A stretch of DNA of 64,000 nt. Source: Megaustenia siamemsis. Its lineage: Eukaryota > Mollusca > Gastropoda > Stylommatophora > Ariophantidae. The stretch covers positions 58,907,000 through 58,970,999 of the forward strand of contig JAVIAB010000046.1 in assembly GCA_032433765.1 (NCBI GenBank). The letters are read 5' to 3'. Each line of letters begins with the position of its first letter. Positions within the stretch are counted from its first letter, which is position 1. Shown piece by piece: positions 3,334-31,470 of this stretch. The translations under genes were made by a program, and so were the position numbers. The notes beneath the pieces were generated by a model, which was not told the origin of the DNA, ran no database searches, and worked only from the letters and a program-made list of their open reading frames with translations.

Positions 3334-3600
3334 AAAGTAAGCAGACCTTCCCACCACCTGCCTTGCTAGGCGTATGGAGAATGTGGTGTTAGTGACCATA
3401 TTTTTCTATGACCACGGCACATTTTTAGGTTATGTGGTCGGTATAATGGCAGGCCGCCTTTACTTCCCAGAAAAATCGCTGGTACCCATTTTTAGAGATG
3501 GGTGAACCCAGAAGCCTTGTTAGTCCGAAAAAAAAATCCGCCACTGCTGGGATCGAACCCGCACCCTTCTGGTCAGGAAACGAGCACACTAACCACTCAG
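3334..3600 (-). mobile_element. SINE family B, copy 1 (head tandemly amplified)
   Basis: Minus-strand SINE with the same body plan as family A. Shared body segments include the GGGTGAACCC, GGTACCCATTTTTAG and TGGTGTTAGTGACCA blocks and the T-run tail. The tRNA-like head is different: its A-box region reads GTGGCTGAGTGGTTAGTG and the B box GGTTCGATCCC. Instead of ending at the head, the sequence passes straight into the array at 3583-4436, which repeats this head. No target-site duplication can be assigned because the 5' end is buried in the array. Confidence 0.85.
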
Positions 3601-4436
3601 CCACCGAGCACACTAACCACTCAGCCAACGAACACACTAACCACTCAGTCACCGAGGTGAGCACACTAACCACTCAGCCACCAAGGTGAGCACACTAACC
3701 CCTCAGCCACCGAGGTGAGCACACTAACCACTCAGCCACCGAGGTGAGCATACTAACCACTCAGCCACCGAGCACACTAACCACTCAGCCACCGAGGTGA
3801 ACAAACTAACCACTCAGCCACCGAGCACACTAACCCCTCAGCCACCGAGGTGAGCACACTAACCACTCAGCCACCGAGGTGAGCATACTAACCACTCAGC
3901 CACCGAGCACACTAACCACTCAGCCACCGAGGTGAGCACACTAACCACTCAGTCACCGAGGTTAGCACACTAACCACTCAGCCACCGAGCACACTAACCA
4001 CTCAGTCACCGAGGTGAGCACACTAACCACTCAGCCACCGAGGTGAGCACACTAACCACTCAGCCACCGAGGTGAGCATACTAACCACTCTGCCACCGAG
4101 AACACTAACCACTCAGCCACCGAGGTGAGCACACTAACCACTCAGCCACCGAGCACACTAACCACTCAGCCGCCGAGGTGAGCACACTAACCACTCAGCC
4201 ACCGAGCAGACTAACCACTCAGCCACCGAGGTGAGCACACTAACCACTCAGCCACTGAGCACACTAACCACTCAGCCACCGATGTGAACACACTAACCAC
4301 TCAGCCACCGAGCACACTAACCACTCAGCCACCGAGGTGAGCACACTAACCACTCAGCCACCGAGCACACTAACCACTCAGCCACCGAGGTGAACACACT
4401 AACCACTCAGCCACCGAGCACACTAACCACTCAGCA
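3583..4436. repeat. 24/29-bp array made from the SINE-B A-box head
   Basis: About 30 copies alternating between 24-bp and 29-bp units. On the plus strand each carries ACCACTCAGCCACCGAG; the 29-bp form adds GTGAG. Reverse-complemented, the unit is the pol III A-box head of SINE B (CGGTGGCTGAGTGGTTAGTG). The array is continuous with the SINE B copy at 3334-3600. Copy-to-copy variants are single-base changes. Confidence 0.93.
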
Positions 4437-4683
4437 CCAAGGCTTCACAACCACAGTTCTGCTTGAGTACATCTAAATTGATCATAAGGGACGCTATAAC
4501 CAACATCTCTACATTATCGATGGCTTCAGCACGATTGTTGGACATAGAAACTGCGCAACATCTCAACGTTTGGAAACATTTCTTCTTCAACGAAAGTATC
4601 AGTGATACAAAGGTTAACTATTCTAGAATATTCTTTATCTTTGTGCTAGGTCACAAATTTGAACCACCCCAATAACATGTCAA
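4437..4683. other. Short unique spacer
   Basis: Between two arrays. A 70-codon plus-strand frame (4463-4675) has no recognisable similarity and I do not support it as a gene. Confidence 0.5.
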
Positions 4684-5022
4684 TGCTAGTACACAGAGAG
4701 GCGGTAACAAAGATCGTTTGTGGCGAGAACCAATGGCCTGCTAGTACACAGAGAGGCGGTAACAAAGATCGCTTGTGGCAAGAACGAATGGCCTGCTAGT
4801 ACACAGAGAGGCGGTAACAAAGATCGTTTGTGGCGAGAACCAATGGCCTGCTAGTACACACAGAGGTGGTAACAAAGATCGCTTGTGGCGAGAACCAATG
4901 GCCTGCTAGTACACAGAGAGGCGGTAACAAAGATCGCTTGTGGCAAGAACGAATGGCCTGCTAGTACACAGAGAGGTGGTAACAAAGATCGTTTGTGGCG
5001 AGAACCAATGGCCTGCTAGTAC
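4684..5022. repeat. 55-bp tandem array, about six copies
   Basis: Exact 55-bp periodicity with landmarks CTAGTACACA at 4686, 4741 and 4796. Units differ at a few diagnostic positions (CGTTTG/CGCTTG, GGCGAGAACC/GGCAAGAACG). These variants alternate, consistent with amplification of a two-unit block. Confidence 0.95.
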
Positions 5023-5109
5023 ACAAGTCAGACACAATTCCCATTTGTCCATTGTTGACACACGCCAATAATAAATGAATATTATTCTAGAGGGAACCTT
5101 CCGAGGCGA

Positions 5110-5268
5110 TGACCAGCGAATCAATTCAGAGGAAGAGCTATGTTTACATTCGGAAAAAAGGACAAATAATCAACAACAGAAAAAACAAACAAAGAACAAT
5201 ATATGGACCGAAGCAGGACCGAACCCGTACTTCTTGGTGTAAACATACCTCTTCCTCTGAATTTATTC
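5110..5268 (-). mobile_element. SINE family C fragment with inverted arms
   Basis: Minus-strand reading gives a B-box-like GGTTCGGTCCTG, then TATTGTTCTTTG and a T-rich tail ending GTAAACATAGCTCTTCCTC. The same order is seen at 30428-30655. A second, inverted copy of the tail end (GTAAACATACCTCTTCCTC) lies at about 5240-5260, so the fragment is flanked by ~30-bp inverted arms and could fold back. The 23-bp array begins at the outer edge of the right arm. Confidence 0.65.
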
Positions 5269-5975
5269 ACCAAGGATTCCATCATTGATTCACCAAGGAT
5301 TCCATCATTGATTCACCAAGGATTCCATAATTGATTCACCAAGGATTCCATAATTGATTCACCAAAAATTCCATCATTGATTCACCAAGGATTCCATCAT
5401 TGATTCACCAAGAACTCCATCATTGATTCACCAAGGATTCCATCATTGATTCACCAAGGACTCCATCATTGATTCACCAAGGATTCCATCATTGATTCAC
5501 CAAGGATTCCATAATTGATTCACCAAGGATTCCATCATTGATTCACCAAGGATTCCATCATTTATTCACCAAGGACTCCATCATTGATTCACCAAGGATT
5601 CCATCATTGATTCACCAAGGATTCCATCATTGATCACCAAGGATTCCATCATTGATTCACCAACGATTCCATCATTGATTCACCAAGGACTCCATCATTG
5701 ATTCACCAAGGACTCCATCATTGATTCACCAAGGACTCCATCATTGATTCACCAAGGATTCCATCATTGATTCACCAAGGACTCCATCATTGATTCACCA
5801 AGGATTCCATCATTAATTCACCAAGGATTCCATCATTGATTCACCAAGGACTCCATCATTGATTCACCAAGGATTCTATCATTGATTCACCAAGGATTCT
5901 ATCATTGATTCACCAAGGATTCCATAATTGATTCACCAAGGACTCCATCATTGATTCACCAAGGATTCCATCGTG
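5262..5975. repeat. 23-bp tandem array, about 31 copies
   Basis: Unit contains GATTCACCAAGGATTCCATC. Two main variants, GGATTCC and GGACTCC, are interspersed. The first unit overlaps the end of the inverted arm of the preceding SINE C fragment, so the array may have started there. Confidence 0.95.
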
Positions 5976-6032
5976 TTGAACGTATGTGATCTTGATGATG
6001 ATTATTGAGAATCCCACGTGGGGACGTTCAAG

Positions 6033-6771
6033 ATAAACGTTACATGAGATATCGTTGCTGAAAGAGCGCTATGTAGGCGATCATTTTGTGCTTACATGAG
6101 ATATCGTTGCTGAAAGAGCGCTATGTAGGCGATCATTTTGTGCTTACATGAGATATCGTTGCTGAAAGAGCGCTATGTAGGCGATCATTTTGTGCTTACA
6201 TGAGATATCGTTGCTGAAAGAGCGCTATGTAGGCGATCATTTTGTGCTTACATGAGATATCGTTGCTGAAAGAGCGCTATGTAGGCGATCATTTTGTGCT
6301 TACATGAGATATCGTTGCTGAAAGAGCGCTATGTAGGCGATCATTTTGTGCTTACATGAGATATCGTTGCTGAAAGAGCGCTATGTAGGCGATCATTTTG
6401 TGCTTACATGAGATATCGTTGCTGAAAGAGCGCTATACAGGCGATCATTTTGTGCTTACATGAGATATCGTTGCTGAAAGAGCGCTATAAAGGCGATCAT
6501 TTTGTGCTTACATGAGATATCGTTGCTGAAAGAGCGCTATATAGGCCATCATTTTGTGCTTACATGAGATATTACTGAAAGAGCGCTATATAGGCCATCA
6601 TTTTGTGCTTACATGAGATATCGTTGCTGAAAGAGCGCTATGTAGGCGATCATTTTGTGCTTACATGAGATATCGTTGCTGAAAGAGCGCTATATAGGCG
6701 ATCATTTGTGCTTACATGAGATATCGTTGCTGAAAGAGCGCTATATAGGCGATCATTTTGTGCTTACATGA
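6033..6771. repeat. 52-bp tandem array, about 14 copies
   Basis: Highly uniform units carrying GATATCGTTGCTGAAAGAGC, then CTATGTAGGCGATCATTTTG. The first seven units are essentially identical. Variants (CTATACAGG, CTATAAAGG, CTATATAGG) and one deletion fall in the right half, so homogenisation is polarised towards the left end. Confidence 0.96.
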
Positions 6772-7225
6772 GCATAGTGTAGGTTGAGAGATAGACAGAG
6801 GAGAGAGGAGGGGACGGAGAAAGCGAGTTTAGTGTTTCAAAATTCTCCACAGCACTTCCTCAGCGTGCAACACGCAGCTACACGCTAGGGAAAGCACTAA
6901 AGATGGTTTCAGTCCAGATGCACGAGCTACTTAACCCTGATGAAGACATCACAAGAAGATAATCCTGCTCCCCAAAAAGGGCGTACTCAAGTACAGTGAC
7001 TACAGGCACAGGCGATCGTGTCGCTCCACAACTTTCCATCTCTATAGCTGCTTTACCTGTTGACTTCTGACTAAACCACTCACTGAAAGTGTCGGGTTCC
7101 TGCCATCTCCCTGCTTTCCTCTTAAACTTTTATCCCTTAATATTTCCGGCTGTTCATATAACACATTGTATGTTCAAGGATCACATTGACTACACACAGT
7201 AACAGTGTTCTCTCTCAGAACTGTC
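6772..7225 (+). mobile_element. Unique spacer with a short reverse-transcriptase-like relic
   Basis: At about 6955-7025 the plus strand can be read as ILLPKKGVLKYSDYR. This resembles the LPKKG..xxYR motif at the start of non-LTR reverse transcriptase domains. The similarity is short, has no intact frame on either side, and could be chance. The rest of the interval shows nothing recognisable. Confidence 0.35.
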
Positions 7226-9065
7226 TGTCATTTCGTTTCTTCCCTTCACATTTCTCTGCTCTTCTTTCATTTCTTCCTTTCACAATTCTCTGCACTTCTT
7301 TCATTTCTTCCCTTCACATTTCTCTGCTCTTCTTTCATTTCTTCCCTTCACATTTCTCTGCTCTTATTTCATTTCTTCCCTTCACAATTCTCTGCTCTTC
7401 TTTCATTTCTTCCCTTCACAATTCTCTGCTCTTCTTTCATTTCTTCCCTTCACATTTCTCTGCTCTTATTTCATTTCTTCCCTTCACAATTCTCTGCTCT
7501 TCTTTCATTTCTTCCCTTCACAATTCTCTGCTCTTCTTTCATTTCTTCCCTTCACAATTCTCTTCTCTTCTTTCATTTCTTCCCTTCACATTTCTCTGCT
7601 CTTCTTTCATTTCTTTCCTTCACAATTCTCTGCTCTTGTTTCGTTTCTAGCCGACACAATTCTCTTCTCTTCTTTCATTTCCTCACTTCACAATTCTCGC
7701 TTCCTTTATTTCCTCCCTTCACAATTCTCACTTCCTTTATTTCCTTACTTCACAATTCTCACTTCTTTTATTTCCTTACTTCACAATTCTCACTTCCTTT
7801 ATTTCCTCCCTTCACAATTCTCACTTCCTTTATTTCCTCCCTTCACAATTCTCACTTCCTTTATTTCCTTACTTCACAATTCTCACTTCTTTTATTTCCT
7901 TACTTCACAATTCTCGCTTCCTTTATTTCCTCCCTTCACAATTCTCACTTCCTTTATTTCTTTACTTCACAATTCTCACTTCCTTTATTTCCTCCCTTCA
8001 CAATTCTCACTTCCTTTATTTCCTCCCTTCACAATTCTCACTTCCTTTATTTCCTTACTTCACAATTCTCACTTCTTTTATTTCCTCACTTCTTTTATTT
8101 CCTTACTTCACAATTCTCACTTCTTTTATTTCCTCACTTCTTTTATTTCCTTACTTCACAATTCTCACTTCCTTTATTTCCTTACTTCACAATTCTCACT
8201 TCTTTTTTTCCTTACTTCACAATTCTCACTTCTTTTATTTCCTCACTTCCTTTATTTCCTTACTTCACAATTCTCACTTCCTTTATTTCCTTACTTCACA
8301 ATTCTCACTTCCTTTATTTCCTTACTTCACAATTCTCACTTCCTTTATTTCCTCCCTTCACAATTCTCACTTCCTTTATTTCCTTACTTCACAATTCTCA
8401 CTTCTTTTATTTCCTTACTTCACAATTCTCACTTCTTTTATTTCCTTACTTCACAATTCTCACTTCTTTTATTTCCTCCCTTCACAATTCTCACTTCCTT
8501 TATTTCCTTACTTCACAATTCTCACTTCTTTTATTTCCTTACTTCACAATTCTCACTTCCTTTATTCCCTTACTTCACAATTCTCACTTCTTTTATTTCC
8601 TTACTTCACAATTCTCACTTTTTTTTATTTCCTTACTTCACAATTCTCACTTCTTTTATTTCCTCACTTCTTTTATTTCCTTACTTCACAATTCTCACTT
8701 CTTTTATTTCCTCACTTCACAATTCTCACTTCTTTTATTTCCTCACTTCTTTTATTTCCTTACTTCACAATTCTCACTTCTTTTATTTCCTTACTTCACA
8801 ATTCTCACTTCTTTTATTTCCTCACTTCACAATTCTCACTTCTTTTATTTCCTCACTTCTTTTATCCTTACTTCACAATTCTCACTTCTTTTATTTCCTT
8901 ACTTCACAATTCTCACTTCTTTTATTTCCTTACTTCACAATTCTCACTTCTTTTATTTCCTCACTTCACAATTCTTACTTCTTTTATTTCCTCACTTCAC
9001 AATTCTCACTTCTTTTATTTCCTCACTTCACAATTCTCACTTATTTTATTTCCTCACTCCACAAT
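7226..9065. repeat. Pyrimidine-rich tandem array, 34-bp then 31-bp units
   Basis: Plus strand is almost purely C/T with spaced ACAATTCTC. From about 7226 to 7660 the unit is 34 bp (CTGCTCTTCTTTCATTTCTT type). From about 7660 to 9065 it is 31 bp (CACTTCTTTTATTTCCTTAC type), with some shortened units. A very long stop-free frame runs through it (7205-9175), but its product is a low-complexity echo of the repeat and is not a supported gene. Confidence 0.95.
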
Positions 9066-9425: not shown

Positions 9426-10243
9426 GTCGCAAGTGAGTACTTGTCGCAGTAGTTGTAGTAGTAGTGGTGGTAGTAGTAGTAGAAGTTGTCGCAGTAGTTG
9501 TAGTAGTAGTGGTGGTAGTAGTAGTAGAAGTTGTCGCAGTAGTTGTAGTAGTAGTGGTAGTAGTAGTAGTAGAAGTTGTCGCAGTAGTTGTAGTAGTAGT
9601 GGTGGTAGTAGTAGTAGAAGTTGTCGCAGTAGTTGTAGTAGTAGTGGTGGTAGTAGTAGTAGAAGTTGTCGCAGTAGTTGTAGTAGTAGTGGTAGTAGTA
9701 GTAGTAGAAGTTGTCGCAGTAGTTGTAGTAGTAGTGGTAGTAGTAGCAGAAGTTGTCGCAGTAGTTGTAGTAGTAGTGGTGGTAGTAGTAGTAGAAGTTG
9801 TCGCAGTAGTTGTAGTAGTAGTGGTGGTAGTAGTAGTAGAAGTTGTCGCAGTAGTTGTAGTAGTAGTGGTGGTAGTAGTAGTAGAAGTTGTCGCAGTAGT
9901 TGTAGTAGTAGTGGTGGTAGTAGTAGTAGAAGTTGTCGCAGTAGTTGTAGTAGTAGTGGTGGTAGTAGTAGTAGAAGTTGTCGCAGTAGTTGTAGTAGTA
10001 GTGGTGGTAGTAGTAGTAGAAGTTGTCGCAGTAGTTGTAGTAGTAGTGGTGGTAGTAGTAGTAGAAGTTGTCGCAGTAGTTGTAGTAGTAGTGGTGGTAG
10101 TAGTAGTAGAAGTTGTCGCAGTAGTTGTAGTAGTAGTGGTGGTAGTAGTAGTAGAAGTTGTCGCAGTAGTTGTAGTAGTAGTGGTAGTAGTAGCAGAAGT
10201 TGTCGCAGTAGTTGTAGTAGTAGTGGTAGTAGTAGCAGAAGTT

Positions 10244-10274
<31 letters not shown>
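9426..10274. repeat. 45-bp tandem array of GTA/GTT/GTG triplets
   Basis: About 19 units of exactly 45 bp. Each has one landmark, AGTTGTCGCAGTAGTTG, followed by GTA and GTG triplets. Because 45 is a multiple of three and the triplets lack stops, two plus-strand frames stay open throughout (Ser/Arg/Cys/Gly-rich and Val-rich). I regard these as composition artefacts. A few units lose one or more triplets. Confidence 0.95.
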
Positions 10275-10276
<2 letters not shown>

Positions 10277-10445
10277 CCTCCTCCTACTACTACTATTACA
10301 ACTACTGCGCTACAACTACTACTATTACTACTACCCCTACAACTACTGCTATTACTACTACCACTACAACTACTGTTACCTCTACTACTACAATTGGTAC
10401 TATAGTAGCAGTTTTAGTAGGTGTAGTTGTAGTGGTAACCACCAT
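10275..10445. repeat. Strand-inverted continuation of the GTA array (ACT/ATT/ACC triplets)
   Basis: At about 10275 the plus strand switches abruptly from GTAGTAGTAGTACC to TCCTCCTACTACTACTATT. From there it is ACT/ATT/ACC triplets to about 10395, then returns to GTA/GTT. The junction is an imperfect palindrome, and the right arm could pair with the left array. Confidence 0.8.
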
Positions 10446-13165: not shown

Positions 13166-13979
13166 TCTGTGCAACATCATCATCGAGTGCCGTCTCCGCA
13201 TCGAAGGTTGGCTACCATGGAGCGCCATTTCTCTCTGTCTCATGCTTTGATGGTGCAGATTGTCATAGGTTGACTTGTCCATCTTTTGATGTTACTCTAT
13301 ATGTTAGTCTTGGTCTGCCTCTGCCTCTTTTACCTTGTATTTTCCCCTCCAGGATCACTTTTATTAGGCTGCTGTGTCTTTTAACATGCCCCAAACATCG
13401 CATTTGTCTTGTTCTAATTGTGCTTAGTAGTTCTCTTTTCATTTTTGGTTGTTTTAAGACTTCATCGTTTGTTTTCTTTTCCTTCCATCCAATTCTAACT
13501 ATTCTTTTATATTTCCACATTTCAAAGGCTTTAATTCTCTGTTCTGTTTTCTTGTCTAATGTCCATGTTTCTGCACCATACAGTAATATTGAGAAGATGT
13601 CTTCTGCTACCATTTTAGCTCCCAGTGGAGCATAGGTCTTCAACAAACACTTTTCAAATCTTTCTGTTTTTTGCAATTCTTTTAAGATCATTCCATGTCT
13701 TCCTCATCATCTTCATCTCTGCTTCTATCTGTCTTCTCCAAGAATTCCTTGGTCTTCTTCCTCTTTGTCTTTTCCCCTGGGGATTCCAGAAAAGGGCCTG
13801 CTGTGCAATACTCTCAGTTGGCTTCCGTAGTGTGTGTCCCATCCAGCGCCATCGTCTTCACTGTATCTCTTTACCCACTGGTATTTGACTGGTACATTTC
13901 CATAATTCTATATTGAGATGATGTAACATTTTGCTATCCTTTGTTGTAGCCAGGTGTTATTTGTTTTGATGTCTGTGCA
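13166..13979 (-). pseudogene. Non-LTR family A copy, interrupted by a family D insertion
   Basis: Minus strand encodes the C-terminal region of a reverse-transcriptase protein: LLYGAETWTLDKKTEQRI, then CLGHVKRH and GKIQGKRGRGRPRLT. It aligns closely with the better-preserved copy at 42467-43396. The 3' end is at about 13180 with a short CAT-repeat tail. Homology resumes at 13910-13972 after an unrelated 309-bp block, so the copy is split by a later insertion. A short TCTGTGCA repeat at both outer ends (13166, 13972) may be its own target-site duplication. It is 5'-truncated, with no catalytic YADD. Confidence 0.85.
13601..13909 (-). mobile_element. Non-LTR family D, 5'-truncated copy nested in family A
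   Basis: Minus strand encodes GHTLRKPTESIAQQALFWNP, then QGKRQRGRRPRNSWRRQIEA and TWNDLKRIAKNR. This is the C-terminal tail of a non-LTR ORF2 distinct from family A. It ends with a GTTGAAGACCTATGCTCCAC block, also seen at 28080. Flanking 15-bp repeats ATATTGAGAAGATGT (13586-13600) and ATATTGAGATGATGT (13910-13924) match the interrupted family A sequence, with one mismatch, and mark the target-site duplication. Confidence 0.85.
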
Positions 13980-17744: not shown

Positions 17745-17762
17745 GTCGATCTCGTCACCGTC

Positions 17763-18170
17763 ATTCAGTGCCGTCTCCACATCGAAGACTGGCTATCATG
17801 GACCGCCATTCAGTGCCGTATCTACATCGAAGACTGGCTATCATGGACCGCCATTCAGTGCCGTATCTACATCGAAGACTGGCTATCATGGACCGCCATT
17901 CAGTGCCGTATCTACATCGAAGCCTGGCTATCATGGACCGCCATTCAGTGCCGTATCTACATCGAAGACTGGCTATCATGGACCGCCATTCAGTGCCGTC
18001 TCCACATCGAAGCCTGGCTATCATGGACCGCCATTCAGTGCCGTATCTACATCGAAGACTGGCTATCATGGACCGCCATTCAGTGCCGTCTCCACATCGA
18101 AGACTGGCTATCATTGACCGCCATTCAGTGCCGTATCTACATCGAAGACTGGCTATCATTGACCGCCATT
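17763..18170. repeat. 45-bp array made from the 3' end of non-LTR family A
   Basis: Nine 45-bp units. The minus strand of each translates as TEWRSMIASLRCRYG or TEWRSMIASLRCGDG. Family A elsewhere ends EEWRYMVANLRCGDGT (42467-43396), so the unit is the last 15 codons of the retrotransposon. The array is continuous with the family A copy at 18171-18450. Open frames on both strands result from the multiple-of-three period. Confidence 0.95.
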
Positions 18171-18450
18171 CCGCTGTCTCTTGCTTTGATGGTGCAGGTT
18201 GTCATAGGCTGACTTGTCCATCTTTTGATGTTACTCGTCCATGTTAGTCTTGGTCCGCCTCTTTCTCTTTTACCCTGTAGTTTTCCCCTCCAAGACTACA
18301 TTTATTAGGCTGTTGCGTCTGTTAACATGCCCCCACAATCTCATGTGTCTTGTTTGAATTGTCTTTAGTTGCTGTATTTCGATTTTTAAGTATTTCAAAA
18401 CTTCATCCTTTGTTTTCTTTTCTTTTCACCAAATTCTACCTATTGTTAAC
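18171..18450 (-). pseudogene. Non-LTR family A copy, C-terminal part
   Basis: Minus strand matches the family A 3' region, including the segments corresponding to the CTIKAR, GRGRPRL and GHVKRH blocks, with frame-breaking changes. It is 5'-truncated at about 18450. Its 3' end is replaced by the tandem expansion at 17763-18170. Confidence 0.8.
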
Positions 18451-20530: not shown

Positions 20531-20795
20531 TACAGCTGGGGTCAATGCTTCCAGCAACCCATATCTGAATCCATAGATCGCCGAACAGCAGAGCTGATCA
20601 AGCAAGACTCTCCTCCGCCTACCAGCAGTGCCCCTGGAGACATGCTATCCAGTCTGGCCAATAGAGAAGGGCTCGAAGAGGGAAGACAACTCGGTATTGA
20701 AACCTGCTGCAGCCGGAAGTGTTGGCCAACAAGACGCTAGTAAACCATTACACATCTACGACTACTTAACGCCCTTTTAGGCTCGTCTAGCGGCG
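20531..20795 (+). mobile_element. Dispersed repeat module G, copy 1
   Basis: Shares TAGTCTGGCCA, GAAGAGGGAAGACAAC, CCGGAAGTGTTGG and CTACTTAACGCCCTTTTAGG with copies at 25860-26130 and, in part, 25450-25640 and 28340-28430. It probably represents the 3' end of a retroelement, but no coding domain is visible so its class is unknown. It runs directly into the 9-bp array. Confidence 0.6.
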
Positions 20796-21462
20796 AAGAT
20801 GTCATAGATGTCAAAGATGTCAAAGATGTCATAGATGTCAAAGATGTCATAGATGTCAAAGATGTCAAAGATGTCATAGATGTCATAGATGTCAAAGATG
20901 TCAAAGATGTCATAGATGTCAAAGATGTCATAGATGTCATAGATGTCAAAGATGTCAAAGATGTCATAGATGTCATAGATGTCATAGATGTCAAAGATGT
21001 CATAGATGTCAAAGATGTCAAAGATGTCAAAGATGTCAAAGATGTCAAAGATGTCATAGATGTCAAAGATGTCAAAGATGTCAAAGATGTCAAAGATGTC
21101 AAAGATGTCATAGATGTCATAGATGTCAAAGATGTCAAAGATGTCATAGATGTCAAAGATGTCAAAGATGTCATAGATGTCAAAGATGTCATAGATGTCA
21201 AAGATGTCATAGATGTCATAGATGTCAAAGATGTCAAAGATGTCATAGATGTCAAAGAAGTCAAAGATGTCATAGATGTCAAAGATGTCATAGATGTCAT
21301 AGATGTCAAAGATGTCAAAGATGTCAAAGATGTCATAGATGTCATAGATGTCATAGATGTCAAAGATGTCATAGATGTCAAAGATGTCAAAGATGTCATA
21401 GATGTCAAAGATGTCATAGATGTCAAAGATGTCATAGATGTCATAGATGTCATAGATGTCAT
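20796..21462. repeat. 9-bp array, GATGTCAAA and GATGTCATA
   Basis: About 74 nonamers, two types mixed in irregular order. It begins at the end of module G (GGCGAAGATG), whose other copy ends GGCGGATGATGAAG, so the array probably grew from that tail. A stop-free minus-strand frame (Met-Thr-Ser/Leu-Thr-Ser) is an artefact of the 9-bp period. Confidence 0.95.
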
Positions 21463-21590
21463 AGAGAGAACTAGAGAGAGATCAAGCACATCTGGCACTA
21501 GGACCAGTGACGGAACATGTTAGTCAGAAATTAACAAAAGAACAGGAATGGCTAAAGAGCAATGTCAACAAGAAACTAGACTCACATCAA

Positions 21591-22110
21591 AGCTAATATT
21601 ATCTGAACTAAAACTAAGAATTGTACAATTGTATATTTACTCAACATTGAGTTATTTGCGGGTCATCATCATTGCACTCCGAACATGTCCATAGGTGCTC
21701 AGATCCCCTCCTCATCAATTCCCTCAGTGTCCAGCGACTGACGACTCCAGTTCTATGTTGGTTGATAAGTCTTCTTACACGGCCACCAAGTTTCTCATTT
21801 CTGGCCGTGCCCAACTTAACTCCCATTTCCATCATCCGAAGAAGTGACGTGGATCTGTGTTTGTCGAAGTCCTGTGCTCTTCCCACATCTCGGAGGGCAT
21901 TGATGATGTCCGCCCGATCCATCGGTTGCCCGTCCTCAACGACAGCGCAGCTAGCCAACCTGTCCGCCCTTTCATTTCCACGTACTCCCGCATGTCCAGG
22001 GACATAGACAAAGGTGACCTTACGTATTTTGGATTTCTGCAATGACTCTACCCATTGCATGCGTACAGAGCCCACCTACACTTTTTTAATCATGCTCATC
22101 GAATCACTCA
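21591..22110 (-). pseudogene. RNase H domain remnant of a non-LTR retrotransposon
   Basis: Minus strand encodes SDSMSMIKKV, an in-frame TAG at 22076-22078, then VGSVRMQWVESLQKSKI, VTFVYVPGHAGVRGNERADR and a tail ending WTCSECNDDDPQITQC. TDS/SDS carries one conserved acidic residue of RNase H. HAGVRGNERADRLA is the diagnostic C-terminal block holding the conserved His and the last Asp. The domain is 5'-truncated (first acidic residues absent) and carries a nonsense codon, so it is dead. The ~130 residues after the RNase H core resemble the C-terminal extension ending in a Cys-rich cluster in some non-LTR elements. A second copy lies at 30660-31045. Confidence 0.88.
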
Positions 22111-22965
22111 ACATTACTGTGTGGTGCAGAAACATGGACATTATATATATATATATATGGGGAGAATTGAGTGGAAGTAGAAGACAAGCAAGGTAGTTCT
22201 GAATCAGCTGAAAATGGAAGAAAAAAAAAGAACAACTGAACACAATAGGAAAAATACAATTGAAATCTTTGGACATGTGAAAAGACATATCACCATTGTA
22301 AAAGTGATCTTGGGAGGGAAGGTACAAGGTAGGCGAGACAGGAACAGACCCAGGCTAAAGTGGACAGGTAACATCAACAGGTGAACAGGTGAATCTATGA
22401 CAAGGTGCACCATCAAGACAAGACACAGGTGAATCTATGACAAGGTGCATCATCAAGACAAGAGACAGGTGAATCTATGACAAGGTGCATCATCAAGACA
22501 AGAGAGAGGTGAATCTATGACAAGGTGCACCATGAAGACAAGAGATAGGTGAATCTATGACAAAGTGCATCATCAAGACAAGATACAGGTGAATCTATGA
22601 CAAGGTGCATCATCAAGACAAGAGATAGGTGAATCTATGACAAGGTGCACCATCAAGACAAGAGATAGGTGAATCTATGACAAGGTGCATCATCAAGACA
22701 AGAGAGAGATGAATCTATGACAAGGCGTACCATCAAGACAAGATACAGGTGAATCTATGACAAGGCGCACCATCAAGACAAGATACAGGTGAATCTATGA
22801 CAAGGCGCACCATCAAGACAAGATACAGGTGAATCTATGACAAGGCGCACCATCAAGACAAGATACAGGTGAATCTATGATTAGGTGCACCATCAAGACA
22901 AGAGATAGTAAAATGGCGCTCCGGGGTAGCCAACCCTCGAAGTGGAGACGGCACTCAATGAATGA
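22105..22965 (+). pseudogene. Non-LTR family A copy (divergent) containing an internal array
   Basis: Plus strand runs from the YGAETW region (ATGGACATTA at ~22130), through a short (AT)n tract at 22142-22158 and the GHVKRHI region (~22270), to a GRPRLKW-like segment near 22355. It then enters the 40-bp array at 22383-22910. After the array the family A 3' end resumes: TGGCGCTCCGGGGTAGCCAAC and GGCACTCAATGAATGAATGAG (~22915-22965). Frameshifts and stops are present. The 5' edge abuts the RNase H remnant head-to-head. Confidence 0.8.
22383..22910. repeat. 40-bp array inside a family A copy
   Basis: About 13 units with landmarks GGTGAATCTATGACAAGG and CACCATCAAGACAAGA. The unit corresponds to the family A segment that in the 42467-43396 copy reads CAAGTCAATCTATGTCAGCC then CACCATCAAAGCAAG (codons for TSQSMSACTIKAR). 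It sits exactly where that segment belongs. Four consecutive AGATACAGG units on the right (~22740-22870) mark a late block duplication. Confidence 0.92.
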
Positions 22966-23639
22966 ATGAGATCTCCTTTCATGCTGGGCACAGAGTAACT
23001 AAACCCTGAATAAGATTGTTTTGACAGTTATCTCCCTTAGTATGTATGACACATGAATGACGTATGGCGTGTATTATGTATTTCATATTCAGACGTTTTG
23101 TAAGTTGCACGTAAACTAGGATTAGACATGGAGACCACAGTTTTTAAAATCTACCGCAAGGAATGTAGGCAAACATGCACCGCCAGTTAAGGTTACAAAT
23201 TCGCTAGTGCAGAGAGGGTTAAAGTTGAACGCTCCGCTTCTCTTTTGTCAATGAAGCTACCTTTAATGTTCTCGTTTTTGATCTTTTTCTGAGAGCCATT
23301 GAAACGGTCATATAAAGTGAGTGTTAAAACAAAATCCAAGGAGAGATTGAACCGGTCCTAGTGCCGGCTGTTATTGAAAGTTGACTGTCGACATTCCAGC
23401 ACTTTCATCTCTTGACTTGATGGCTGTTTCTGATAATTTACTAAATAGCGTTCTCTCAGCTTTGATGTTTTCTTGAGACTTGTACCCGTGCTATTCACCT
23501 GTTGCCTCGCCTTATACTTCTGATCAAGCATAGGGACTTGTTGGTGATAAAGTTAGATTGATTGATTTCATGCCTGGGTGGGTAGCGGTCTCATGACCCC
23601 GACACAGGACATCAGATCTGAACTCTTTCAGTGAGTCAA
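22966..23639. other. Unique sequence, nothing identified
   Basis: No tandem structure, recognisable domain or long frame. Confidence 0.5.
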
Positions 23640-23856
23640 AGTAAACAGTGCCGTTTAGGGAATATAGTGTTAGTGGTCATCATTTTTATAGACCTTCAGC
23701 ACATGATTTTTGGGATAATGTGGTCAGTATTACGCCCGTGCAGTTTTACTTTCCCGCAAAAAAAAATCAGGTACCCATTTAAAGCTGGGTGAACCCGGAA
23801 GCCGTCGATCAAGATCAAACGCGACTTTTTGTCCTTTGTAGTCCAGTCACTAGCCA
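23640..23856 (-). mobile_element. SINE family A, copy 2 (diverged, head amplified)
   Basis: Minus-strand body matches family A (TTAGGGAATATAG, ACCTTCAGCACATGATTTTTGGG, GGTACCCATTTAAAGCTGGGTG and CTTTGTAGTCCAGTCAC in plus-strand order). The tail is degenerate and the B box is mutated (GATCAAGATCAAAC on plus). The head continues into the 24-bp array instead of ending at a target-site duplication. Confidence 0.85.
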
Positions 23857-24525
23857 CTGAGCCATCGCGGCTCCCAACCACTGAGCCATCGCGGCTCCCA
23901 ACCACTGAGCCATCGCGGCTCCCAACCACTGAGCCATCGCGGCTCCCAACCACTGAGCCATCGCGGCTCCCAACCACTGAGCCATCGCGGCTCCCAACCA
24001 CTGAGCCATCGCGGCTCCCAACCACTGAGCCATCGCGGCTCCCAACCACTGAGCCATCGCGGCTCCCAACCACTGAGCCATCGCGGCTCCCAACCACTGA
24101 GCCATCGCGGCTCCCAACCACTGAGCCATCGCGGCTCCCAACCACTGAGCCATCGCGGCTCCCAACCACTGAGCCATCGCGGCTCCCAACCACTGAGCCA
24201 TCGCGGCTCCCAACCACTGAGCCATCGCGGCTCCCAACCACTGAGCCATCGCGGTTCCCAACCACTGAGCCATCGCGGCTCCCAACCACTGAGCCATCGC
24301 GGCTCCCAACCACTGAGCCATCGCGGCTCCCAACCACTGAGCCATCGCGGCTCCCAACCACTGAGCCATCGCGGCTCCCAACCACTGAGCCATCGCGTCT
24401 CCCAACCACTGAGCCATCGCGGCTCCCAACCACTGAGCCATCGCGGCTCCCAACCACTGAGCCATCGCGGCTCCCAACCACTGAGCCATCGCGGCTCCCA
24501 ACCACTGAGCCATCGCGGCTCCCAA
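23853..24525. repeat. 24-bp array made from the SINE-A A-box head, 28 copies
   Basis: Twenty-eight nearly identical 24-bp units, plus-strand core CCACTGAGCCATCGCGGCTC. The reverse complement GAGCCGCGATGGCTCAGTGG is the first 20 nt of SINE A, including its pol III A box. Only three or so single-base variants exist (for example GCGGTTCCC at ~24250 and GCGTCTCCC at ~24395), indicating very recent or ongoing homogenisation. Long open frames on both strands are artefacts of the 24-bp period. Confidence 0.97.
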
Positions 24526-25258
24526 CACTTCCAGCACAGAAGGTTTTTATCAATTTAGCGGAAGAGATTTCCGAGACAACATTTGTCATGTTTTTAAATA
24601 TTAATCTACATGTTTATATTTATCATCGCGTGTGTTACCGGGGCCTCATTATGAGGGAGGTCAAGAATAGTGACACTGTGACCTTCCAGGCATGTCGTAA
24701 GAGGCGACTAAGGAGGTTAATCGATGGCTTTTCAAGCTGTCATTGTAAAAAGTATTGTTATGGAAACAGCGCCATATATTTTAGAGCAGTGATCTCTGCA
24801 ATATGTGCCACTTTGACACGCAAGGTTTCTGTTTTTGAGATTGTGGTTCTGCCCTATGTGCCGTCTTCGGCTCGAAAGGACAATAGATAGATAGAAAGAT
24901 AGAATATATTTATCAAACACATAACATATTATATATGAATTTGTAGATAATTGAACAAGGAATTAGATTTCACCAATACCAAGATGAGACAACAAGACAT
25001 AGACAGAGATTATGGTTTGATGACGGTTCAACTAATCAAATTGAGAGTGACGCACTGTGCGGCTAAACGTACAGGATCGGCATGGCGCGTCAAACGTACG
25101 GAGAAAGTTATTTTATGTAAAAGCAAGGGACAGGTAAATAACTGCAGTGCTCAGGTAAAGCTGGTAGAAAGTAGCAAGTGGCGGGATGTACCGTACACTC
25201 CTACCAAAGTTTGGAGACAGATTTACCAATATGGAACAAAATAATATTTTAGAGTTTG
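24526..25258. other. Unique sequence, no supported gene
   Basis: A 97-codon plus-strand frame (24951-25244) is Lys/Arg-rich and matches nothing I recognise. No domain or splice pattern supports a gene. Confidence 0.45.
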
Positions 25259-25808: not shown

Positions 25809-25829
25809 AATATAAAGTGAAATAAAATG

Positions 25830-26130
25830 GAGGCGAAGGCGCGCCTCACAGCACCAGAGCTGGAAATGTCAGCGACCCTGAGCTGATGGCTTGCTCCAGC
25901 ATCGGTGAACCAGAACCATCCAGACCCTGCTCCACCTCTCCGCGGTGCCTCTAGTAACAGACTAACCTGTTTAGTCTGGCCATGCGAGTAGGGATCGAAG
26001 AGGGAAGACAACCCGGTACTTAACAATGTCGTGCTGAAGTCGGATGTGTTGGGCCGAAAGGCGCAAATATCACAGTTATACTGTAAACCACAACACAACG
26101 CAGACACGCCTACTTAGCGTCCTTTTAAGG
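25830..26130 (+). mobile_element. Dispersed repeat module G, copy 2
   Basis: Best-preserved copy of module G: TAGTCTGGCCATGCGAGTAG, GAAGAGGGAAGACAACCCGG, GTCGGATGTGTTGGGCC, then CGCCTACTTAGCGTCCTTTT and a GGATGATGAAG tail. No coding domain is visible. Probably the 3' end of a retroelement. Confidence 0.55.
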
Positions 26131-26340
26131 GCGGATGATGAAGAGATGCACTCCTTTAGTCATCGGGCGAACGCAAGCAAGCAAGTAAATACAATGAGAA
26201 AATAAATCGGAGGGAAAGTGTCGATATTACAAGAAAGTAATTAATTGCAAATAAATATAAAATAAGATGTGACGTAGAAGCAACTATAGTCTCACATGTT
26301 TCTTATGAAGGGAAAAGCTGTTTCTGCACACTTTCTCCTC

Positions 26341-26650: not shown

Positions 26651-27129
26651 TCCTTCTCCTCACTATCCACCTGCTTACACATTGCCTGCTCTGCCCTCGC
26701 CATCGCCTCAGATTGTTCCAGACAGATGTCTCCTTGTTGGCTCTCAGCTTTCCAACCATCAAAACTGCCCTCAGTGGCGTCTCGTTCTATCCAGGTCAGT
26801 CAGTTCTCGCATACTTACTTAACATGTTCCATCGGGTTGGCACCTGTTCCACACCTTCCCTCGCGTGTACTCACCACCTGTCTATCCTACCTCCGTGCGG
26901 TCATCGCGTAGAACAAACCTATTTTATTGTTGTCAAAATTGATATCTCCGGGACAGAAGGAAATGTGATAATTTGTGACAAATGGAGTAATTGAAAGAAA
27001 TAGAGATGGAGAAAGATAATGCTAGAATAAAGATAAGCATTTGGGTAGACTACACGGCTGTTGTCTGTAATCTCATAGTAGTATTTTAGTTCTATTTAAT
27101 AAAATGTTGGCTACATGTGCACATGAAGA
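26651..27129. other. Unique sequence, no supported gene
   Basis: Frames that leave the 53-bp array extend a little way here, but no domain is recognisable. Confidence 0.45.
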
Positions 27130-27460
27130 TAAGGTCAAGTACGGGACTTGAACCGGCGTCTTAGAACGCGAGCTTCCACCCATATGTGCTCGGCTGCCTA
27201 TCCAGAAGGTGTTCGGAGACTTCTGGACAGTGTTGCTTCAAGCATCGAAACTCATTATGCGAGGAGACAATCCTCACCTTCCTAGGGTAATACCCTGGTA
27301 CCCATTTCTGCCAACGGCTGGGGTCGACCGTGGGGGTATTTTTTTTTTTCCAACCACGAGTACAACTCACACTGCTCCCAGCGGGAATCGAACACGGGTT
27401 GTCCGAACGTCGGTAGTCCAGTCGGGTGGTTTTCCCAACTCGGTCCCCCAAACACGAAGT
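27130..27460 (-). mobile_element. Putative SINE family D with two B-box-like motifs
   Basis: On the minus strand an A-box-like GGACCGAGTTGG (~27437-27452) is followed by a B-box-like CCGTGTTCGATTCCCGC (27383-27400) and an oligo-A. A second B-box-like CCGGTTCAAGTCCCG lies at about 27141-27155. The segment may be one tRNA-related SINE followed by another, or a dimer. No second copy exists in the window and no target-site duplication was found. Confidence 0.45.
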
Positions 27461-27860
27461 TGTCCTGAGGTAAGTATATGCTACTCGTTCTTGATGTTGA
27501 TATTTCATTGGAGTGGTTTAAGTTTGCGACACTGGACAAAAAATTTCAATATTCTAAAGAATTAATTTATGCATTCTCTTCGTTATTTGTTTTGTTGCGA
27601 CTTAAGTCTTCTCGATCACAAATCTCTTATATTTTTCTTAATCACAAGTTTCGGTTTTCTTTTCTGGATAAAATACTCTCTTTGGTTATTTGGTTATTTG
27701 GTTGTTTGGTTATTTGGTTATTGTTTATTTGGTTATTTGGTTATGGAAGGCCCCGGTAACACTACAAAGGAATTAAAATCCATAATTGCTCAACCGTCCG
27801 TGCCAGCGTAATCATCCGAATTAATATCTCAACTCCCAATCAAAGAAAGGTAACTGTAGT
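27461..27860. other. Unique sequence with a short TTATTTGG repeat
   Basis: A ~10-bp repeat (GGTTATTTGG) occupies about 27675-27745. Nothing else was identified. Confidence 0.5.
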
Positions 27861-27889
27861 CCCCATTGTAGCAGTCACAGCGCACGCCA

Positions 27890-28090
27890 AAAGACATAAA
27901 ATACTCTCTGTGAAAGTTAACTGGGAGTAATACACGAAAGATTCTTCTTTGGAATCGCCATGAGAAGCCACAAAGTAGAAGACCAACATGTACTTGGAGA
28001 AGAAGGTGGAAAAAGGGACAAAGATGATGGGGAGTACATGGAATGATCTTTCAAAAATTGGCAAGGAACAGGGCCGTTTGGAAAGTGTTG
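27890..28090 (+). pseudogene. Non-LTR family D copy, C-terminal end
   Basis: Plus strand reads RRPTCTWRRRWKKGTKMMGS, then TWNDLSKIGKEQGRLESVVE and DLCSTGS followed by a stop at about 28119. It aligns with the nested family D copy at 13601-13909 (TWNDLKRI block). It is 5'-truncated: upstream sequence loses the frame near 27950. The coding end runs directly into the ~39-bp array at 28088-28274. Confidence 0.78.
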
Positions 28091-28274
28091 TTGAAGACCT
28101 ATGCTCCACAGGGAGCTGAAAGGGTTTGTTGAAGATCTATGCTCCACAGGGAGCTGAAAGTGTTTGTTGAAGACCTATGACTCCACAGGGAGCTGAAAGT
28201 GTTTGTTGAAGACCTATGACTCCACAGGGAGCTGAAAGTGTTTGTTGAAGACCTATGACTCCACAGGGAGCTGA
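28088..28274. repeat. ~39-bp array made from the 3' end of non-LTR family D
   Basis: Five tandem copies of a unit carrying TGTTGAAGACCTATGACTCC and ACAGGGAGCTGAAAGTGT. The first copy is the genuine end of the family D coding region (VVEDLCSTGS-stop). Later copies have an extra A in CTATGACTCC. The family D insertion at 13601-13909 ends with the same block in single copy. Confidence 0.9.
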
Positions 28275-28471
28275 TAGATAGAAAAAGAAGTGGAAGAAAT
28301 AAAAGAAGAAGAAATAGTCATTGCAGTAGGAAGGCAAATTAGTATTTAAAAGGTCACTCTGAAATCGGATGTACCGGGTTGGGCATAAATGCACAGACAG
28401 CGCAGCACAACTCTCGACATCATTTTAAGGATATTTTACAGGCTAACTTTGAGGAGAAATATTTGTCAAGC

Positions 28472-28763
28472 AGAAGATGAAGAGGGAGCCGCGATAGCTC
28501 AGTGGTTAGTGAACTGGACTACAAAGGACATGGGGGAGGGTCGATCCCAACCGACGGCTTCCGGGTTCACCCAGCCTTAAATGGGTACCGGATTTTTTTC
28601 TGGGAAAGTAAAGTAGCACGGGCGTAATACCGACCACATTACCCCAAAAATCATGTGCTGAAGGTCTGTAAAATATAGGGTCACTAACACCATATTTCCC
28701 TATACGCCACTTGGCGTGACGGGGGTACTTTACTTTTTTTTTTTTTACTTAGAAGATGAAGAG
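28472..28763 (+). mobile_element. SINE family A, copy 3, with 13-bp target-site duplication
   Basis: Complete copy on the plus strand: GGAGCCGCGATAGCTCAGTG head with A box, B-box region GGGTCGATCCC, shared body, and end GGGGTACTTTAC followed by a T-run. Perfect 13-bp direct repeats AGAAGATGAAGAG at 28472-28484 and 28751-28763 bound an element at 28485-28750. The low divergence from the copy at 48300-48561 indicates recent activity. Confidence 0.95.
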
Positions 28764-28867
28764 AAAGAAAAGAAGAATGAATATCTTCTTCCTAAACCTT
28801 TGATTGTATACAGATCTTGTAGTTAAGTTTATTCTTCCATCAACTCTTTCTTTCTTTCTCTCTTTTA

Positions 28868-29680
28868 CAAAGTAAAGTAATATCAAAGAAGAGTTCCCTC
28901 CCCTGCCTTGATAGTCGTATGTGGTATATGGTGTTATGGTTCATTTACAAATTCGTGCCCACAGACTTTCTCAATTACCTCGGAAACGGTTTGATCAATT
29001 TCTGTCATTCTTTTTCAATAAATATTATTTTTTTTACTGACTTTACGATTTTTAAAAATAACATTTAAGTACAAAGATAGCCTGAATTTTGCATAAATCG
29101 TTCTTTGTTATATCATTTTAGGAAAATTTCAATCCGTGTGCTCTAAACATGAGATTTTACTGTAAATTACGTTAGTTTTCTAACAATGCAAGTTAAAGCC
29201 GTGTACGTATCAATTTACGGTTCAGTGAGTGCGAGCTGGTGGTAAGATTGGGCGGAGAACACGTGAAATTTGCCTTTTTAAATGATGAGTTGATTACATA
29301 TATATATTTTGTTGAAATGTGGGTAATGTAAACTATTAGAAATCAGGACAAGCAACAAAATCATATTCTTATATACCACAAAGAAACAAAAGTCTTTCCT
29401 AGATGCATGACAGTAGAGACGAACATCAGAGTTAAGGTCGGTGAAAAAATAAGATTTCATGAAAAAGAATGACAGAAATTCATCAAACAGTTTCCGAGAT
29501 CATTAATAAAGTATGTGGGCACACATTTCGGAACGAACTATATGGTTTATTGTAACAAACGATCCATGAGCACGGCACATATTGGGGTGTTTAGGCTGGT
29601 ATCTCGCTAGGCCTTTATTTCTTAGAAATAAATAAGGTACCCATTTTTAGAGGCTGCGTGAATGCCGGAGTCTTGCCGGC
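28868..29680 (-). mobile_element. SINE family B, copy 2, split by an inverted-repeat element
   Basis: Left piece (28868-28936) matches the SINE B tail (AAGTAAAGTA, CCTGCCTTG, GTCGTATG, TGGTGTTA in plus-strand order). Right piece (~29560-29680) resumes with GAGCACGGCACAT, GGTACCCATTTTTAGAGGCT and GTGAATGCCGGAGTCTTG. The head is missing or too diverged to see. The ~600 bp between the pieces is the element at 28937-29538. Confidence 0.7.
28937..29538. mobile_element. ~600-bp non-autonomous element with ~65-bp terminal inverted repeats
   Basis: The left end has TGCCCACA..., CTCGGAAACGGTTTGATCAA and TTTCTGTCATTCTTTTTCA. The reverse complement of the right end reads TGCCCACA..., CTCGGAAACTGTTTGATGAA and TTTCTGTCATTCTTTTTCA. 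The inverted repeats are imperfect and possibly extend outward to GTTC..GAAC. The interior is AT-rich with no transposase. It resembles a MITE or other non-autonomous DNA transposon. Exact ends and target duplication are uncertain. Confidence 0.75.
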
Positions 29681-29754
29681 GAGAAAGAAAGACAAGAAAC
29701 TTCAGTTAAAAACGTATTTGTTTTCTTTCTAACCTTCTTGTACAACAAACATGG

Positions 29755-30110
29755 TATGAAGCAGATGAACTAATAGAAAGACATGACAACCTCCAACGTT
29801 TCAGCTAAAGCCTTCATCGGATAAAATATAGAAACATTTAAAATTAAACAAATCAATCCAAGCATGAATAAAAATACTTATATAAAAAAATGGCGGAAAG
29901 AAACGGTGGGCAGAATTTACGAAGATATTGATTATGTAATTAATAAACAATGTGGGAGGTATAATGTAAATGAACCACAATTGGACCCATTCAATCTTAC
30001 CTGCTTTATACCTGATGACTAATGAAGGATTTTGCCGAAACGTCGTAGTTTGTCTTGCATTTTTATTAGTTTAGCTGTTTCATATCGTTTTATATGTATT
30101 GTCATATTCT
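29755..30110. other. Inverted pair of hammerhead-ribozyme-like motifs
   Basis: Plus strand 30012-30044 has CTGATGA and, 16 nt later, CCGAAACGTC; the bases between include AGGATTTTGCC. Minus strand 29794-29820 has CCGATGAAGGCTTTAGCTGA then AACGTT, with a possible 3-bp stem II (GGC/GCU). The regions downstream of both motifs are alike, so these are two inverted copies of one sequence. Small hammerheads with a GATGAAGG..CCGAAACGTC layout are known from Penelope-like elements. No Penelope reverse transcriptase is seen here, and both cores carry changes that should impair cleavage. Confidence 0.4.
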
Positions 30111-30426
30111 CTACAGCTCTGATCGTAGCCCCACATAGTATCTCATATTTTATATATTTCATATTTGTTCTCCCTGTGTGTAACATTCGCTGAATGGCTC
30201 TTTTCAAAACTTTGCACTCATCGTCTGTAACATTCCAGCTTTGATGGGCGTACACTGCATCCGTTATTGGTTCTCGATTACTTTTGGCACAGGTACACAA
30301 ATTATCGTTGTTTTGTTTTTGTTTCGTTTCGTTTTCTTTTATCATCAAGCTAATTCCATGTTTTGTGACGACTGTCTTGTATTTGTGGCCAACGTTTATG
30401 TCAACATATAATGATAATGACACCAT
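30019..30426 (-). CDS. Unrecognised 135-codon open frame, possibly spurious
   Basis: Uninterrupted minus-strand frame from ATG (30426) to a stop at 30019, in sequence of mixed composition rather than in an array. The predicted protein is basic, with one short hydrophobic start and no domain I recognise. It contains QSWNVTDDECKVLKRAIQRM, which could form a helix. It overlaps the plus-strand hammerhead-like motif and ends just where SINE C begins, so it may be part of a degraded transposon. Length alone does not prove coding. Confidence 0.2.
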   Translation of the reverse strand: MVSLSLYVDINVGHKYKTVVTKHGISLMIKENETKQKQNNDNLCTCAKSNREPITDAVYAHQSWNVTDDECKVLKRAIQRMLHTGRTNMKYIKYEILCGATIRAVENMTIHIKRYETAKLIKMQDKLRRFGKILH

Positions 30427-30427
30427 G

Positions 30428-30655
30428 CGTGAAAGACATCGCCAATGATAGCTACTATTTTAGGTAAGCTGAGTTGGCTGTGTGCTCTATCGTTTTTGAT
30501 GTCTCGTGGCAAAGCGCTGTCCTGGGGAATACGTGTTCGATCCTGTCTCGGACTGTCTATTGTTCTTTGCTTTTTTTTTTTTTCTTCTGTTTTTGATTAT
30601 TTGTGATTCTTTTTTCCGAGTGATGTAAACATACCTCCTCCCCGGAAGTACGCAG
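30428..30655 (+). mobile_element. SINE family C, copy with tRNA-like head
   Basis: Plus strand: GACATCGCCAATGATAGCTA lead, A-box-like AGCTGAGTTGGCTGTGTGCT, GGCAAAGCGCT, B-box-like GTGTTCGATCCTG, then CTATTGTTCTTTGC, a T-run and TGATTATTTGTGATTC ending GTAAACATACCTCC. The same order occurs on the minus strand at 43930-44115 and partly at 5110-5268. Promoter boxes are recognisable but not perfect. Confidence 0.7.
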
Positions 30656-30659
30656 GAGT

Positions 30660-31045
30660 GGTTCGAGTCTCTTCAGAAGTCAACGATAAGTAGAATCACC
30701 TTTGTTTACATCCCTAGACATGTGGGAGTGCGGGGAAATGGAAGAGCGGACAGGTTGGCCAGCTGTGCTGTCGTTGAAGACGGTCTACCAAAGGATCAAG
30801 CAAACGTTATTACGGCCCACTGAGAGGCGGAAAGCGCACAGGACTTGGACAACCATGAGTCCACGTCACTCCTTCTGATGGAGTATATGGGAGTCAGGTT
30901 GGGAACAGCCAGACACGAGGGACTGTGTAGGTGCTATGAGGTCTTGTCAACCAACACAGAGATGGAGTCGTCAGTCACTGGATGCTGTCGGTCTTGCTGA
31001 GCAGGGGATCTTAGCATATATGGACATGTTCGGAGTGCAATGATG
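30660..31045 (+). pseudogene. Second RNase H remnant of the non-LTR element
   Basis: Plus strand reads ITFVYIPRHVGVRGNGRADR, LASCAVVEDGLPKDQANVIT, then a stop, and further on LGTARHEG and GHVRSAMM. It is a diverged copy of the 21591-22110 remnant. HVGVRGNGRAD shows the RNase H block with the conserved Glu changed to Gly and the following Asp kept. At least two in-frame stops occur. The coding end (CGGAGTGCAATGATGATAAC) runs straight into the array at 31036-31470. Confidence 0.82.
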
Positions 31046-31470
31046 ATAACCCACACATAACTCATTGATGATAACCCAGAAATAACTCAATGATGATAAC
31101 CCACACATAACTAAATGAGGATAACCCAGAAATAACTCAATGATGATAACACACACATAACTAAATGATGATAACCCACACATAACTAAATGAGGATAAC
31201 CCAGAAATAACTCAATGATGATAACACACACATAACTAAATGAAGATAACCCAAAAACAATTCAATGATGATAACACACACATAACTAAATGAGGATAAC
31301 CCAGAAATAACTCAATGATGATAACCCACAAATAACTAAATGAGGATAACCCAGAAATAACTCAATGATAAAAAACCCACAGATAACTCCACGATGATAA
31401 CCCACAAATAACTCAATAATGATAACCCACAAACATCTCAATGATGATAACTCACAAATAACTCCAAAAC
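31036..31470. repeat. ~26-bp array made from the RNase H element 3' tail
   Basis: About 16 units of AATGATGATAACCCACAAATAACTC type with single-base variants (CCAGAAATAACTC, CACACATAACTA). The single-copy tail of the related element (minus strand near 21660) reads AATGATGATGACCCGCAAAT then AACTCAATG, so the unit is the element's own terminal sequence in tandem. Confidence 0.9.

Follow-up and report, generated by a model that had tools for sequence, protein, structure and literature searches.

Seven of the 29 tandem arrays in a 64,000-nucleotide stretch of the genome of the gastropod Megaustenia siamemsis (contig JAVIAB010000046.1, positions 58,907,000 to 58,970,999; the whole stretch is referred to below as the window) originate from the copies of short or long interspersed nuclear elements (SINEs or LINEs) that they continue. 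These arrays are probably minisatellites that were born in place: short direct repeats would have allowed a small segment to duplicate in tandem, and the duplicate would then have expanded locally. We assign this reading a probability of about 0.7. In the window, the number of arrays that arose from transposons is in keeping with the fraction of DNA that transposons make up and shows no excess over chance. Merged matches from Tandem Repeats Finder (TRF) placed 39,352 of the 64,000 bases (61%) in arrays with many different units. Comparison of the array-masked window with itself revealed several interspersed families: those labeled in this analysis SINE-1, SINE-2, LINE-A, LINE-B and LINE-C, an inverted-repeat family and one repeat present in two copies. 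SINE-1 occurs in four copies, and SINE-2 in two long ones and two weaker fragments.

The origin of array units was indicated by alignments to the array-masked window of units from 27 arrays with a unit of at least 9 bp (i.e., all but those that begin at 27681 and 35976), each compared with 30 shuffled versions of itself. An earlier note on this DNA had named six arrays as amplified pieces of transposons and a seventh as probably so, and all seven positions were recovered by TRF at nearly the same coordinates. Units of the six scored from 46 to 76 against shuffle maxima of 32 to 41, and the best matches were, as the note had described, unamplified versions in separate members of the SINE or LINE family concerned. 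Thus, the unit of the array beginning at 3582 matched 43750-43783, that of 17757 matched at 13181, 45479, 22912 and 43331, that of 22385 at 13229, 18174 and 43283, that of 23854 at 48298, 28484 and 3271, that of 28081 at 13599 and that of 31038 at 21637. A further array that the note had not named, 45545-45649, gave a score of 97 against a maximum of 39 (matches at 18185, 13246 and 43265). In contrast, the probable case, a 9-bp array of AAGATGTCA on the plus strand (20796-21465), scored 28 against a shuffle maximum of 33, and a transposon origin is therefore unsupported by its unit; a gap of 24 bp separates its left edge from the two-copy repeat (20596-20772 and 25913-26101). Among the other 19 arrays tested, scores above the controls were noted for 9441 (40 against 33) and 25286 (48 against 39), both of which matched their own immediate flanks, and, by one point, for 32410 (38 against 37), which matched single-copy DNA at 4579-4649; the remaining 16 gave no score above the shuffle controls in the masked window. 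An origin from DNA elsewhere in the window was thus not clearly found for any of these other arrays. Seven of the 27 arrays tested therefore have a unit of more than 10 and less than 100 bp that comes from an interspersed element, as transposon-derived minisatellites do. Within the window, each of the seven is continuous with a host copy that has unamplified relatives, and for each unit one copy was amplified among those relatives, which bears out the direction proposed earlier, from transposon to array.

Three of the seven arrays arose from LINE-A, an unamplified copy of which (42457-43390, plus strand) contains a reverse transcriptase open reading frame (PF00078, E=4.3e-22); of the 120 relatives listed among 1,638 for the protein, the first to carry a species name comes from Elysia marginata (50% identity). 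Unit alignments placed the 45-bp unit of array 17757 (17757-18171, minus strand, 9 units) at the LINE-A 3' terminus, next to a host copy at 18174-18447 (minus strand) with 83.2% identity to 13235-13506. The 40-bp unit of array 22385 (22385-22905, plus strand, 13 units) was placed about 45 bp inside the 3' end, directly before the terminal 45 bp; the LINE-A-like host copy at 22107-22383 (plus strand) is 67-69% identical to 43046-43281 and 13280-13512 and has further parts at 21497-21648 and 22907-22960. The third case is a 54-bp duplication on the minus strand (45545-45649; TRF, 1.9 copies, 100% matches), the two copies of which are identical over the 51 bp they share. Its unit falls in the same 3' region as the 45- and 40-bp units, and its host, at 45473-46439 (minus strand), is 87.7% identical to 42462-43238.

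An unamplified LINE-B copy with an RNase H match (PF00075, E=1.9e-6) lies at 21649-22105 on the minus strand, nested in the LINE-A-like copy and bounded, as judged by eye, by a target-site duplication (TSD) of ACTCAACATT (21639-21648 and 22106-22115), which was used to set the LINE-B terminus. The 25-bp unit of array 31038 (31038-31464, plus strand, 17 units) corresponds to the 3' terminal piece so defined and follows a host copy at 30648-31037 (plus strand) with 76.6% identity to 22066-21675. LINE-A and LINE-B are thus assigned to the non-long-terminal-repeat (non-LTR) elements by PF00078 and PF00075, respectively, and by the TSD seen in one LINE-B copy, while LINE-C is a putative member of this class. 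Array 28081 (28081-28274, plus strand) consists of 5 units of 38 or 39 bp from near the LINE-C 3' end and lies beside a host copy at 27903-28071 (plus strand) that is 71% identical to 13664-13835. At 13586-13924, another LINE-C copy (13601-13909) sits inside a LINE-A copy, with a 15-bp TSD in which, by eye, 14 of 15 bases are alike.

The two SINE arrays repeat sequence from the opposite, 5' end of the element. The 24-bp unit of array 23854 (23854-24526, minus strand) is the SINE-1 5' terminal 24 bp, and the adjoining host copy (23626-23853, minus strand) is 82-83% identical to 3067-3271, 28711-28507 and 48528-48322. These matches fall in three unamplified SINE-1 copies, at 3029-3295 (minus strand, with the 5' head GGGAGCC on the right and 91-92% identity to 28484-28747 and 48298-48558), at 28484-28747 (plus strand, 96% identical to 48295-48560) and at 48298-48560 (plus strand, with a TSD of CAGTGTGAAAGTG seen by eye on both sides). 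A candidate TSD, also found by eye, encloses host copy and array together (23621-23631 and 24524-24534, 9 of 11 bases alike). The unit of array 3582 (3582-4442, minus strand), 24 or 29 bp long, comes from the SINE-2 head a few bases inside the 5' end. Its host copy (3334-3581, minus strand) is 82.8% identical to 43509-43752, part of an unamplified copy with an intact head at 43498-43793 (minus strand) identified by self-comparison and unit alignments. Motifs resembling pol III A and B boxes were seen in SINE-1 and SINE-2 by eye; ARAGORN found no tRNA genes, a search of bases 1-49000 with Rfam at E<=0.1 gave no tRNA match, and SINE patterns had 0 matches among viral contigs in two scans.

The relative age of the units was judged from comparisons, over the same region, of unit-to-unit identity with unit-to-unamplified-copy identity. 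Thus, units were 99.4% identical to one another and 87-91% identical to three unamplified copies for SINE-1 array 23854, with corresponding values of 96.0% and 74-81% (four copies) for LINE-A array 17757, 92.3% and 75-76% (three copies) for LINE-A array 22385, and 98.1% and 88-95% for LINE-A array 45545. In these four of the seven arrays the present units are clearly younger than the insertion. In the 54-bp case a diverged element has undergone a simple, recent duplication, the two units matching over all 51 bp while the body of the host copy is 77-88% like its relatives. A looser comparison with host bodies gave a larger contrast (units 88.5-100%, bodies 67-88% in local alignments), but the same-region comparison was preferred because short conserved units can yield such a contrast, and neither comparison dates the first duplication because homogenization keeps units alike. 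The remaining three arrays weigh against a general birth after insertion, the contrast being weak for SINE-2 array 3582 (91.8% mutually, 88.4% to the unamplified copy at 43786) and for LINE-C array 28081 (96.6% and 92.2%, from one homologue) and absent for LINE-B array 31038 (85.4% and 84.3%).

The last of these results bears on the proposal that the reverse transcriptase, by jumping between templates or slipping during target-primed insertion, made the first terminal repeats. The LINE-B array, the units of which are no closer to each other than to the unamplified copy, could date from insertion, and both its 25-bp unit and the 45-bp unit of LINE-A are 3' terminal pieces of their elements. We nevertheless regard this proposal as distinctly unlikely, given the younger units of the SINE-1 array and the three LINE-A arrays (although homogenization could mask an old start), the recent and internal position of the 54-bp duplication, and the location of the SINE arrays at the 5' end. 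The diversity of units bears on expansion by rolling-circle replication or by reinsertion of circular DNA. Array 23854, with only 3 distinct forms among 28 units, is what such a burst would give, whereas many forms were noted elsewhere (19 among 32 units in array 3582, 11 among 17 in array 31038); moreover, the arrays stay in their own host copies, and the element resumes beyond arrays 22385 and 45545, so that this route appears improbable. The near uniformity of array 23854 might also be taken for an assembly artefact, an explanation with hardly any likelihood in view of unit differences within most of the seven arrays and of progenitors that occur unamplified elsewhere.

Unit edges could be read directly at this locus because the seven arrays have unamplified progenitor relatives in the same 64 kb. 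Direct repeats of 3-5 bp were found at the edges in six of the seven arrays. In progenitors of array 22385, GACA recurred at a spacing of 40 in two of three copies and ACA in the third; for array 17757, AATG or AATGG recurred at a spacing of 45 in two of four copies and ATG in the other two; for array 45545, ACA or AACA recurred at a spacing of 54 in all three copies. Single progenitors showed AAAA at a spacing of 38 (array 28081) and CTC at 24 (array 3582), and the edge repeat of SINE-1, GTT, lies in its own flank. Compared with random breakpoints in non-array DNA, these edge repeats gave a combined P of 7e-5 with the best value for each array and 0.003 with the lowest.

A second measure was how far the incomplete last unit overlaps; it was available for 21 of the 29 arrays, leaving aside 7231, 9441, 11773, 15765, 25286, 27681, 35976 and 48794, which are of low complexity, of mixed units, of very short period or, in one case, extend past the window. 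It was calibrated on 1,000 arrays simulated without microhomology and applied in the calibrated test to 20 arrays, 20796 being dropped for its 9-bp period. An overlap of at least 4 bp was noted in nine of 13 non-transposon arrays (P=0.0075) and in four of seven transposon arrays, as opposed to 29% of simulated arrays; the pooled count was 13 of 20 (P=0.001), and the two classes did not differ (P=0.66). The most economical explanation is that these minisatellites formed, as others are known to do, at short direct repeats.

Several details weigh against this account. The combined P mixes own-flank readings made by eye with homologue values, and chance matches at the unit spacing but off the edges were the longest in several copies (e.g., GAGAC, 5 bp, at 13172 for spacing 45, and CGGTT, 5 bp, at 43786 for spacing 24). 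The LINE-B edges share only 1 bp. As to overlap, transposon arrays alone fell short of significance (calibrated P=0.066), the values for SINE-1, SINE-2 and LINE-B were 1, 0 and 1 bp, and values of 18, 27 and 38 represent partial units instead of short repeats. The involvement of short direct repeats at unit edges is thus supported but not proved.

We infer the molecular route of both steps, first duplication and later expansion, and the time at which the former took place, as follows. An inserted SINE or LINE copy would contain a segment of 24-54 bp between two chance direct repeats of about 3-5 bp, of which one could be in the flank or both in the element. Replication slippage or microhomology-mediated repair might produce a single duplication of this segment, the longer homology of which could then permit the array to grow through unequal exchange, gene conversion or further slippage. 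The non-transposon arrays in the window can be explained by the same process, which would act on any sequence it meets. Among the routes put forward in the earlier note, duplication at short direct repeats thus received some support and rolling-circle amplification no specific support.

The earlier note had further taken the occurrence of several families within 30 kb to suggest a local or genome-wide bias toward amplification of transposon ends. In the window a bias toward transposons as such was not evident: multi-copy DNA made up 8,251 of 24,648 non-array bases (33.5%), or 7,975 (32.4%) without three weak matches left out of the element list (2707-2825, 4605-4683 and 27497-27574), and for 29 arrays this proportion predicts 9.4 derived ones, as compared with the seven observed (P(X>=7)=0.88). 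Counting nine or ten arrays instead gave P=0.63 and 0.47. Multi-copy DNA was found within 20 bp of eight of the 29 arrays, against 36% expected (P=0.88), and flanked nine with the weak matches kept. Both the multi-copy share and the number of derived arrays are lower bounds because only families repeated in this window were counted. The presence of several families within 30 kb is thus expected, because 29 arrays share 24.6 kb of remaining sequence, one third of it multi-copy; transposon-born arrays stand out because other copies keep the unamplified progenitor.

With regard to a bias toward the ends within an element, units were nearer to a copy end than random segments (Fisher P=0.03), and P was 0.0014 when LINE 3' and SINE 5' ends were picked after seeing the data. 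These tests are post hoc, one family supplies three of the only seven cases, and distances were measured by hand from alignments; an end bias within elements is therefore weakly suggested and can be taken as a lead. It bears on the alternative that termini are preferred sites of duplication, for instance through recurrent nicking of the element-flank junction by the LINE endonuclease or through direct repeats supplied by tails like (GATG)n. In favor of this alternative and against duplication at chance repeats alone, three of the seven units (SINE-1, LINE-B and the 45-bp unit of LINE-A) begin or end 5 bp or less from a terminus (P=0.013, post hoc; within 3 bp the three qualify only with a favorable phase for the 45-bp unit, P=0.004). 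Similarly, a human survey (PMC3389668) describes 136 arrays in which a partial Alu lies next to a full or nearly full one, and discusses a nick site at the 5' end. Four of the units are nevertheless internal and there is no overall excess of transposons, and we consider preferred termini possible but on the whole doubtful.

Models of minisatellite birth include the Haber-Louis and Taylor-Breden models. Such models have short direct repeats bounding the unit or an incomplete last unit (as described in PMC3389668, refs 15 and 14 there). The flanking repeats of the Haber-Louis model are 5-10 bp long, whereas those noted here are mostly exact repeats of 3-5 bp, with 1 bp in LINE-B. Ahmed and Liang (2012; PMC3389668) counted 7,276 human transposon-derived cases, approximately 23% of minisatellites, as compared with seven of 29 arrays (24%) in the window. 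The human cases resemble ours in the amplification of a short SINE or LINE piece in one copy and, in part, in short flanking direct repeats, which were also described for Alu minisatellites by Jurka and Gentles (cited in PMC3389668). They differ in families and host and in length, human Alu arrays averaging approximately 2.3-2.4 units whereas six of our seven arrays have 5-32 units. A caution against birth at short direct repeats is that only 6% of the human transposon-derived arrays could be assigned to these birth models. Satellites are also known from the 3' untranslated region of HeT-A/TART and from tRNA-related regions of SINEs, i.e., Hy/Pol III of Hydromantes and Satellite 1 of Xenopus (PMC9659126), with further transposon-derived cases in PMC6947457. 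In Hy/Pol III and Satellite 1 the amplified region is likewise the head, which is tRNA-related there, but these are satellite families, whereas each array described here occurs at one place in the window. A literature search specific to gastropods found no paper. The locus is thus a new set of examples of a known process, the formation of transposon-derived minisatellites.

Other features of the window include a 44-bp satellite (48794-64000, at least 15.2 kb, 97% matches by TRF) that extends past the window end, a GAAA microsatellite (35976-39600, 3.6 kb, 81% matches by TRF) and two imperfect, foldback-like palindromes (28935-29542, approximately 600 bp, and 29741-30098, approximately 360 bp; self-inverted at 59-60% identity). 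Members of the inverted-repeat family, which resembles miniature inverted-repeat transposable elements, lie at 5077-5265, 30432-30647 and 43896-44227. The array at 44228 begins at the end of the match to this family at 43896-44227, and the array at 5261 begins 31 bp past the match at 5077-5230, by eye apparently at the inverted-repeat end of that element. Broken transposase-like reading frames were seen by eye at 46924-47706, two pieces of which matched no Pfam family at E<=0.01. Three Rfam matches to microRNA families (10221-10352) were far below gathering scores and were taken as chance.

The first steps of minisatellite formation are hard to study as the progenitor is usually lost. The locus also serves as a caution that the transposon share must be corrected for before contact between transposons and arrays is read as a transposon effect. 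A broader view, which we think unlikely, is that the host amplifies almost any segment between short direct repeats so that minisatellites come to make up most of its non-coding DNA, with element-flank junctions preferred as starting points owing to recurrent nicks or simple tails. If this were true, the genome would serve as an inventory of minisatellite births in which the progenitors are preserved.

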